NCBI RefSeq assembly: GCF_000252855.1
Contig: NC_017045.1
Location: 1,922,001 to 1,986,000 of the forward strand
Direction of reading: 5' to 3'
From: Riemerella anatipestifer ATCC 11845 = DSM 15868
GTDB lineage: Bacteria > Bacteroidota > Bacteroidia > Flavobacteriales > Weeksellaceae
Length of the DNA: 64,000 nucleotides
The notes beneath the pieces were generated by a model. It saw nothing but the letters and a program-made list of their open reading frames with translations, had not been told where the DNA came from and made no database searches. Every line of letters begins with the position of its first letter. Positions within the stretch are counted from its first letter, which is position 1. Of this stretch, positions 34,823 through 37,238 are shown in pieces. A program made the position numbers and the translations under genes.

Positions 34823-35118
34823 TAGGCGATAGAAAAAATATCGGTAGGGATAAAAAAAAGTCGTGTAGGAACACAAAAATGGTCTGTAGGAATACAAAAA
34901 CGGCTTTGAGGAATAGAAGAATGGCAGTGAGGAACACAAAAATGGTTTGTAGGGATACAAAAACGACGGTGAGGAATAGAAGAATGGCAGTGAGGAACAC
35001 AAAAATGGCTTGTAGGAATACAAAAACGGCTTTGAGGAATAGAAGAATGAACAGTTTTTGTCTATAAAATTGATAATAATTCAAAAAAATAATTTGTAGG
35101 AAGATAAAAACCACTCGT
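34823..35118 (+). repeat. 21-bp phased tandem array with a 63-bp higher-order period
   Basis: AGG-anchored units start at 34823, 34845, 34866, 34887, 34908, 34929, 34950, 34971, 34992, 35013 and 35034, and again at 35097, which is exactly 63 bases later. Except for one 22-bp step, spacing is exactly 21. Nine central units follow an A-B-C pattern three times: A contains AGGAACACAAAAATGG, B AGGAATACAAAAACGG, C AGGAATAGAAGAATGG. The unit is a multiple of three without stops, so long frames exist on both strands; I do not consider them genes. Each unit carries an A-tract phased at two helical turns. Confidence 0.9.
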
Positions 35119-35262: not shown

Positions 35263-35270
35263 TATATTTG
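35263..35270 (+). promoter_or_regulatory. -7 promoter element of the cysteine leader and cysE-cysM
   Basis: TATATTTG is a full consensus match. The transcript should start near 35277, 13 nt before the leader ATG and about 177 nt before cysE. No clear -33 TTTG is seen. Confidence 0.65.
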
Positions 35271-35289
35271 TCCCATCATTAGAGAAAGT

Positions 35290-35370
35290 ATGATTTTAAC
35301 AAACCAAATAGCGAAAAGTATGTGCTACACTGCAAGTTTAGATAGGCAGTGTGTGCGTTTCGTTGTATAG
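35290..35370 (+). CDS. cysteine-containing leader peptide of cysE-cysM
   Basis: A 26-residue frame from ATG 35290 to TAG 35368-35370 begins MILTNQIAKSM and continues CYTASLDRQC then VRFVV. A shorter start at ATG 35320 would begin MCYTAS. The first Cys codon, TGC 35323-35325, lies immediately before arm 1 of an attenuator, and the second, TGT 35350-35352, lies inside arm 2. The peptide is followed by a terminator and then the cysteine-synthesis genes. Function as a ribosome-stalling sensor of charged tRNA-Cys is inferred from this arrangement. Confidence 0.75.
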   Translation: MILTNQIAKSMCYTASLDRQCVRFVV

Positions 35371-35435
35371 TTGAGTAAGATATAACATAGAATTATTAGA
35401 AAGTCACTGCCAAAATAGGTAGTGGCTTTTTTTTT
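35327..35435 (+). promoter_or_regulatory. transcription attenuator controlling cysE-cysM
   Basis: Four arms alternate. Arm 1 ACACTGC (35327-35333) pairs with arm 2 GCAGTGT (35346-35352). Arm 2 shifted by one base, GGCAGTG (35345-35351), pairs with arm 3 CACTGCC (35405-35411). Arm 3 also forms the left side of a 12-bp terminator stem (35400-35411 with 35418-35429, two G-U pairs, 6-base loop) followed by nine T (35427-35435). A ribosome stalled on the Cys codon at 35323 would cover arm 1, free arm 2 and block the terminator. Confidence 0.78.
35400..35435 (+). terminator. attenuator terminator upstream of cysE
   Basis: A 12-bp stem (35400-35411 with 35418-35429) with loop AAAATA and a run of nine T lies only 19 bases before the cysE ATG, after the leader peptide. 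Its 5' arm is the one also available for pairing with the leader-peptide region. Confidence 0.85.
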
Positions 35436-35453: not shown

Positions 35454-36293
35454 ATGGATACTAGCAATAGTCGGTTGGTAGAGATACTCTACTCACAAAG
35501 TAGGCAGATAAAACATTACGTAAACAAACAACGTATCGAAGATTTTGCAGAGCGTATATTTCGCTTTTTATTTCTTACGGAAGAAGATATATGCTTCTCA
35601 AGGCTAAGCCTTGAAGCCCATTATGGGCAATTAAAAAACGAATTTGAAGCCATTATTACAGCCTTTTGTGGAGAAAAAGAAAGGAATATAGAGGTAGAAC
35701 ATTTTTTTGAAGAAATATTACCAGAGGTTTACCAAAAATTGATGAAAGATGCCCATTATTTTGCTTCTAACGACCCCGCAGCGACTTCCGTTAGAGAAGT
35801 ACAGGTTACCTATCCTGGTTTTTTTGCCATAGCAATATACCGTTTGGCTCGTGAGCTGTGGCTGCAAGGAGTCCCGTTACTACCTCGTATCTTAACCGAA
35901 TATGCACACAGCCGTACGGGGATAGACATTCACCCTGGAGCCCAAATAGGAGAGAATTTTATGATTGACCACGGCACAGGAATCGTAATAGGAGAAACCA
36001 CCATCATAGGGAACAGGGTTAAGATATACCAAGGCGTAACATTGGGGGCGCTTTCCGTTTCCCTTGATAAGGCGAACACCAAAAGGCACCCCACGATTGA
36101 AGATGAAGTAGTCATCTATTCGGGGGCTACCATACTCGGTGGCGATACTGTTGTGGGGCATCATAGTATTGTGGGAGGCAACGTATGGCTTACCCACAGT
36201 ATTGAACCCTACACCAAAGTCTTTCATAAAAGCCAAATTATCGTAAAAGGCATTGAGGTAGTAGAAACCCCTATCATTAACTATGTAATATAA
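35454..36293 (+). CDS. cysE: serine O-acetyltransferase
   Basis: The 279 residues have an N-terminal helical domain (to about 150, with DPAATSVREVQVTYPGFFA) and a C-terminal left-handed beta helix of hexapeptide repeats (IHPGAQIGENFMIDHGTGIV, IGETTIIGNRVKIYQGVTLGA). The catalytic Asp-His pair is in FMIDHGTG. It acetylates serine with acetyl-CoA, the committed step of cysteine synthesis. It is in operon with the cysteine synthase gene 33 bases downstream and sits behind a leader-peptide attenuator. It is the longer EpsC-type form common in Bacteroidota. Confidence 0.95.
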   Translation: MDTSNSRLVEILYSQSRQIKHYVNKQRIEDFAERIFRFLFLTEEDICFSRLSLEAHYGQLKNEFEAIITAFCGEKERNIEVEHFFEEILPEVYQKLMKDAHYFASNDPAATSVREVQVTYPGFFAIAIYRLARELWLQGVPLLPRILTEYAHSRTGIDIHPGAQIGENFMIDHGTGIVIGETTIIGNRVKIYQGVTLGALSVSLDKANTKRHPTIEDEVVIYSGATILGGDTVVGHHSIVGGNVWLTHSIEPYTKVFHKSQIIVKGIEVVETPIINYVI

Positions 36294-36326: not shown

Positions 36327-37238
36327 ATGGCGTACACAAACATTCTTCAGACGATTGGGAATACACCCGAAGTCAAAATCAACCGTTTATTCGGGGAACA
36401 CTCAAGTGTCTACATCAAACTGGAGCGAAATAACCCTGGAGGAAGCATCAAAGACCGTATCGCTCTAGCGATGATTGAAGATGCAGAGAGTAAAGGTATC
36501 ATTACCAAAGACACCATTATCGTAGAACCAACCTCTGGGAATACAGGGGTAGGGCTGGCGTTGGTAGCTGCAGTAAAAGGCTATAAACTGATATTAGTAA
36601 TGCCTGAATCTATGAGTATTGAGCGTCGTCGTCTAATGGCGGCATACGGGGCAGAGCTAGTGCTAACCCCTAAAGAAAAAGGAATGTCTGGAGCTATTGC
36701 AAAGGCGAAAGAATTGGCAGACGAGAATCCCAATTATTGGATACCACAGCAATTCCAAAACCCAGCAAATCCATTAGTTCATACCAAAACAACAGCTCAA
36801 GAGATACTAAAATCTTTTCCAGAAGGACTAGATTTCTTGGTTACGGGAGTGGGTACTGGAGGGCATATATCAGGTGTGTCAAAAGTATTAAAAGAGCATT
36901 TCCCTAGCCTAAAAGTATATGCTGTAGAACCCGAAGCATCTCCCGTACTTAGTGGAGGGCAGCCAGGACCGCACCCTATACAAGGCATTGGCGCTGGATT
37001 TGTGCCAGATACTTATCAAGGGCAATATGTAGATGAAGTTCTAAAAATTTCTAAAGAAGAAGCATTTCATTATGCCCAGCAGTTAGCAAAATTAGAAGGA
37101 ATATTAGGAGGTATATCTACAGGAGCGTCTTTGGCAGCTGTTGCACAACTACTTAAGTCAGTTCCTAAAGAAAGTAGAATATTAACCTTTAATTATGATA
37201 CAGGAGAGCGTTATTGGTCTGTTGAAGGCTTATTTTAG
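36327..37238 (+). CDS. cysM: cysteine synthase (O-acetylserine sulfhydrylase)
   Basis: The 303 residues show the fold-type II PLP pattern: [19 protein letters not shown] with the PLP Lys near residue 43, [11 protein letters not shown] for the substrate loop, [15 protein letters not shown] for the phosphate, and [11 protein letters not shown] near the end. It turns O-acetylserine and sulfide into cysteine. CysK and CysM types are hard to separate; length and the [15 protein letters not shown] loop fit either. It forms one unit with cysE and ends at a strong terminator. Confidence 0.94.

Follow-up and report, generated by a model that had tools for sequence, protein, structure and literature searches.

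Leader-peptide transcription attenuators are classical for the trp, his and other amino-acid operons of Proteobacteria. A survey from 2010 stated that demonstrated leader-peptide systems were at that time limited to Proteobacteria and Actinobacteria (PMC2965389). In Rhodobacterales, the small ORF uORFC-8-2 carries tandem Cys codons (usually codons 14 and 15) followed by two stems and a U run, lies exclusively before cysS and has been proposed to be a Cys-tRNA attenuator with an intrinsic terminator (PMC8632094). Cys leaders have also been described in Actinobacteria (PMC1262725), and poly-cysteine leaderless small ORFs of mycobacteria regulate cysteine genes by cysteine, as summarised in two later papers (Canestrari 2020 via PMC9031893, PMC13236596); the original prediction for the locus considered here had likewise named Cys-rich upstream frames in Actinobacteria as known. 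Within Bacteroidota, a transcriptome of Flavobacterium psychrophilum led to leader-peptide attenuation being inferred before amino-acid operons, and the main text of that study, in naming conserved 5' elements, gives pheA and hisG and no cys gene (PMC9723704). Little was found in the literature on the regulation of cysteine synthesis in Bacteroidota, and no description of a cysE attenuator in this phylum was found in the open-access literature.

The locus lies in a stretch of 64,000 nucleotides from Riemerella anatipestifer (the window), in which gene calls and genome identities were taken from sequence. R. anatipestifer is a duck pathogen. All features are on the + strand. A leader peptide ORF of 26 codons (MILTNQIAKSMCYTASLDRQCVRFVV; 35290-35370, stop codon at 35368), recognised from sequence and from homologous leaders in R. 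columbina and Capnocytophaga, precedes cysE (serine O-acetyltransferase, 279 aa, 35454-36293; best NCBIfam model TIGR01172, E=2e-46, under its curated cut-off) and cysK (cysteine synthase A, 303 aa, 36327-37238; NCBIfam TIGR01139, over its cut-off), which starts 33 nt after the end of cysE. The leader is kept in three R. anatipestifer genomes, and the CysE of the window is 99% identical to that of R. anatipestifer CCUG25054. A promoter box of the Bacteroidota -7 type (TATATTTG, TAnnTTTG; 35263-35270), identified from sequence, begins 27 nt before the leader ATG, and transcription would be expected to start near 35276-35278. Of the 17 leaders listed, 13 have a box of this type 26-35 nt upstream of their start, and one more has it at 55 nt.

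The leader holds two Cys codons, a TGC at codon 12 of 26 (35323-35325), which is the predicted stall site, and a TGT inside arm 2 (35350-35352). Four arms follow one another around and behind these codons. Sequence, shuffles and folding define arm 1, the protector half (35322-35333, core 35327-35333), and these together with covariation define arm 2 (35345-35356), of which 35346-35356 pairs with arm 1 and 35345-35351 with arm 3. Arm 3 (35398-35411, core 35405-35411), common to antiterminator and terminator, and arm 4 of the terminator (35418-35431) were delimited by shuffles, covariation and folding; the T run, read from sequence, comprises nine T (35427-35435). The 1:2 pairing joins ACACTGC (35327-35333) with GCAGTGT (35346-35352), the 2:3 pairing joins GGCAGTG (35345-35351) with CACTGCC (35405-35411), and the 3:4 terminator joins AAAGTCACTGCC (35400-35411) with GGTAGTGGCTTT (35418-35429). 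In RNAfold both hairpins grew longer: 1:2, folded alone, spanned 35322-35333/35346-35356 with a single bulge (-12.4 kcal/mol), and the terminator reached some 14 bp (-18.7 kcal/mol). The original prediction had set out this arrangement from the ORF and its two Cys codons to the terminator: the ORF and codon coordinates proved exact to the base, every base of the 1:2 and 2:3 pairings was paired as claimed, and the 12-bp terminator with its nine T was found just before cysE, two of its pairs being G-U.

Very probably, this element regulates cysE-cysK by ribosome-mediated transcription attenuation, with charged tRNA-Cys as the signal, as judged from the sequence and from modelled folding. RNA polymerase would start near 35277 and a ribosome would begin translation of the leader at 35290. 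If Cys-tRNA were scarce, the ribosome would wait with codon 35323 in its A site and cover arm 1, which would leave arm 2 free to pair with arm 3 as soon as arm 3 emerged; with 2:3 formed, no 3:4 terminator could arise, and cysE and cysK would be transcribed. If Cys-tRNA were plentiful, the ribosome would reach the stop codon at 35368 and arm 1 would pair with arm 2, so that arm 3 would be left for arm 4 and transcription would end at about 35435. We infer the response to cysteine, the timing between polymerase and ribosome and the termination in the cell.

The predicted folds of the window leader follow this scheme. In the free RNA, the 1:2 pairing dominated (P12=0.99, P23=0.00), while folding of the nascent RNA with a ribosome stalled at Cys 35323 in the A site gave the reverse (P12=0.00, P23=1.00), and a ribosome at the stop codon, given a realistic footprint, again left 1:2 in place (P12=0.88, P23=0.07). 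Of the two Cys codons that the original prediction had listed in the leader, only the one at 35323 fits the role of sensor; the codon at 35350 was ruled out by the folding test, a stall there giving P(2:3)=0 and being predicted to favour termination. When the full-length leader was folded at equilibrium, the terminator was always the most stable form, and the choice must therefore fall during transcription, as in classical attenuators.

A homologous leader was found before cysE in R. columbina and in nine Capnocytophaga genomes, with conservation of the Cys codon that precedes arm 1, of the 2:3 and 3:4 pairings and of the terminator just before cysE. The shared pattern consists of M-Cys-Cys-T, GCAGTG, CACTGC/GTAGTG and a U run, and the homologous peptides have Cys at codon 11-14. 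Each of the 17 leaders listed has cysteine at its stall site, and homologous leaders deprived of the Cys codon or of the pairing, which the original prediction had named as the result that would speak against it, were not seen. The stall-site Cys is tandem in nine of 11 leaders, with the window species (MCY) and one Capnocytophaga (MCMWC) as the exceptions. In every homologous locus checked cysK adjoins cysE, and the CysE of the window is 66-72% identical to those of the leader-bearing Capnocytophaga.

Stalls at codons neighbouring 35323 would likewise cover arm 1; the specificity for Cys rests on conservation. It is very unlikely that the signal is a wider one, either the sulfur amino acids together (Met and Cys) or a general slowing of translation: a stall at any of the few codons around 35323 would serve, and many Capnocytophaga leaders do carry MM or MMM before CC (MMMCC), but Met is inconstant (AVFCCF in R. 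columbina, AAVCCCC in locus L162), whereas Cys is constant at this site, and the controlled genes make Cys. For a leader that reads charged tRNA-Cys, the single stall-site Cys of R. anatipestifer (MCY), against two (MCC) in most relatives, may mean a weaker response in this species.

The arms themselves bear marks of selection on RNA pairing. The GCAGTG arm lies just after the Cys codons and occurs in all three reading frames across the leaders, as GCA GTG in one Capnocytophaga (G517), as xGC AGT G in the other Capnocytophaga and as xxG CAG TG in both Riemerella, which argues that the pairing and not the peptide has been selected there. Covariation of the terminator was assessed on an alignment of ten sequences (A2): four of ten pairs are changed on both sides, and the observed covariation score was reached by none of 500 shuffles. 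For the antiterminator, 96% of the alignment cells are paired, against 28-70% when the pairing is slid. Of its eight pairs, five are invariant, which is expected of an arm with two pairing partners, and a flanking one shows compensation from A-U to G-C. Since the core is nearly invariant, shuffling the antiterminator columns alone made a weak test (25/500 for the covariation score, 32/500 for paired cells). With the conservation of the element, the compensatory changes in the terminator and the one in the antiterminator, the interpretation of the locus as an attenuator in the original prediction is well supported.

For each leader, 500 dinucleotide shuffles served as the reference for the complementarity between the region after the stall codon and arm 3. 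The 2:3 duplex of the window gave p=0.002, and Fisher's method gave p=1.7e-16 over 15 leaders. Because related leaders are not mutually independent, the fair figure is that over six leader types of unrelated sequence, about 6e-7; these are the Riemerella/Capnocytophaga type and five unrelated Cys-rich cysE leaders from elsewhere in Bacteroidota. The pairing was better than shuffles in nearly every leader, two being above 0.05 singly (G530, 0.078; G533, 0.082, the latter left out of the combined test). Where a leader has several Cys codons, the stall codon for these tests and for the stall folding was picked after inspection, either by rule or manually. The 1:2 pairing is weaker, with p=0.027 for the window duplex (300 dinucleotide shuffles) and a combined p=0.002, and in several relatives it is singly no better than shuffles.

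The distance from the stall codon to the start of arm 2 is 10-19 nt across the 15 leaders (11 nt in eight), a spacing that is one ribosome footprint, and a stalled ribosome was predicted to give a 2:3 probability of 0.66-1.00. The corresponding values for a ribosome at the stop codon were obtained with everything upstream masked and say little. The free RNA already favours 2:3 in about half of the leaders, including those of R. columbina, G517 and G531, and the strong 1:2 protector of the window is therefore not universal: it is strong in R. anatipestifer (P12 0.88-0.99) and weak in several homologues.

A rival account is a chance small ORF in front of the ordinary terminator of some upstream transcript, with cysE read from its own promoter; in its favour, small ORFs occur frequently, and a few cysE genes of the survey (e.g., L008) have an upstream terminator without a Cys leader. 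This account is very improbable here: two families share the leader, its Cys codons, the pairings and their spacing, and these features are better than shuffles. Furthermore, only about 20 nt separate the terminator from cysE, and the promoter-like box sits upstream of the leader.

The strong 1:2 hairpin of R. anatipestifer could by itself act as an anti-antiterminator, and a metabolite-binding RNA or an RNA-binding protein might then choose between the 1:2/3:4 and 2:3 folds in place of a ribosome. Such sensing is extremely improbable: the leader has no Rfam riboswitch match, and what the unrelated cysE leaders have in common is limited to a Cys-rich ORF, the logic of three arms and the spacing by a footprint, and does not include a fold. 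An Rfam scan of the leader and of the whole window gave no match at gathering score to a T-box or any other Rfam riboswitch; five weak matches near the leader (E 0.2-0.9) are far under the cut-offs. Three of the leader peptides were compared with NCBIfam, with no leader-peptide family match.

By its sequence, the element belongs with the ribosome-mediated transcription attenuators. As in the classical cases, a short leader with codons for the end product (Cys 35323, predicted to be translated, before cysE-cysK) is followed by arms that can pair as 1:2 (strongly in the window, weakly in several homologues), 2:3 and 3:4; an intrinsic terminator lies between the leader and the first enzyme gene; and an antiterminator that excludes the terminator becomes free on a stall at the regulatory codon, as the shuffles and the predicted P23 indicate. 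Unlike them, it concerns cysteine, cysE-cysK, Bacteroidota and a TAnnTTTG promoter, and most of the leaders are without an obvious Shine-Dalgarno sequence. It shares a Cys-codon leader and an intrinsic terminator with uORFC-8-2, which belongs to another phylum and precedes cysS (cysteinyl-tRNA synthetase); that the window leader is a uORFC-8-2 was ruled out on gene context, since cysE and not cysS stands behind it. With the mycobacterial and actinobacterial leaders, as far as the cited accounts describe them, it has in common leader Cys codons that regulate cysteine genes in response to cysteine; in those leaders the run of Cys codons lies close to the stop and an intrinsic terminator is absent, whereas the window leader has Cys at codon 12 of 26 and a strong terminator, and it was on these grounds rejected as a mycobacterial poly-Cys small ORF. 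The F. psychrophilum elements resemble it in phylum and in leader-peptide attenuation before amino-acid operons. Since Cys attenuators had already been proposed (cysS of Rhodobacterales) and reported (mycobacteria), the cysE case in Bacteroidota adds a new member.

Upstream regions of cysE in Weeksellaceae had been put forward as the place to look for conservation. Homologous, conserved leaders were indeed found, but they are confined to one cysE clade shared with Capnocytophaga; most Weeksellaceae cysE upstream regions showed no leader, and a general feature of the family is thereby ruled out. In a tree of 51 CysE proteins built by a quick method, the ten leader-bearing rows formed a single clade (SH-aLRT 97) that contained no leaderless row. 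The window CysE grouped inside the Capnocytophaga rows beside one Capnocytophaga (71% identical over 276 columns), and its CysK is 86% identical to that of the same Capnocytophaga and 71% to that of R. columbina. The simplest reading of these sequence relationships is that leader, cysE and cysK were transferred as a unit between Capnocytophaga and Riemerella. No leader was seen in Capnocytophaga with a different cysE (L134-L139). In 22 leaderless Weeksellaceae (e.g., L006, L012, L013), an operator-like motif resembling TTACCNTANATCAA lies 46-66 nt before cysE; it was found in none of the leader-bearing cysE regions and is perhaps a candidate site of a transcription factor doing the same job.

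A survey of the phylum covered 149 non-redundant cysE upstream regions of Bacteroidota, with genomes sampled unevenly and cysE starts read from protein matches. ORFs with three Cys in six codons were present in 16 of the 149, against 2.5 expected in shuffles, and Cys had the highest observed/shuffled ratio of any residue in ORFs upstream of cysE; of these 16, L182 at least seems to be a chance occurrence. By inspection, leaders of unrelated sequence with an intrinsic terminator precede cysE in L161, L162, L200, L223 and L034. Also by inspection, a second class has its Cys run at or near the stop codon with no terminator after it (L165, L184, L192, L205, L207, L215, L224), and includes an FCYMCxCC type (L185, L218, L220; a similar one in L171). 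Its peptides end in, for example, ALCCCC, NNCACCCC or FCYMCFCC, and it resembles the mycobacterial poly-Cys ORFs. It is somewhat probable that leaders reading cysteine occur at cysE on a wide scale in Bacteroidota, in two architectures and with several origins, with the leader and cysE-cysK having moved as a unit between Capnocytophaga and Riemerella.

The locus is a clear candidate on which cysteine sensing by attenuation can be tested in Bacteroidota, a phylum whose ribosomes, according to one report, do not rely on Shine-Dalgarno pairing (PMC9976891). Leader attenuation needs a ribosome that keeps up with RNA polymerase, and the element therefore offers a direct test of coupling in this phylum. 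If the wide occurrence of cysE leaders is true, their terminator version would be evidence for transcription-translation coupling in Bacteroidota, because it works only with a ribosome close behind the polymerase. In RNA-seq of R. anatipestifer, low iron was accompanied by a joint drop of cysE and cysK, in the absence of Fur as well (PMC5609570, Table 2). These data show the two genes moving together without Fur and not the attenuator as the cause; as a guess, the attenuator might explain the Fur-independent drop if less building of Fe-S clusters leaves more cysteine.

A covariance model of the element was also used to look for it beside other genes; this search, which missed R. columbina and is thus not exhaustive, returned seven extra matches. 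Four of them (L241, L243, L248, L249) look like ordinary gene-end terminators, and three (L242, L244, L247) look like leaders of other genes. In L242 (Weeksellaceae, G125), two tandem Cys-containing leaders, each with its own terminator hairpin, stand before an EamA-type transporter gene. L244 and L247 have leader-plus-terminator arrangements at other genes, namely MNNKFMHKISIMMCHLNGAAIDLC and a tandem pair beginning MTIIYTNNKAMKMRYQKV, the latter with Arg in place of Cys. In the window itself, a tandem array with a 63-base unit (2.9 copies, 21-base sub-units) lies upstream of the leader at 34867-35049, and the same array is seen with small differences in L032.
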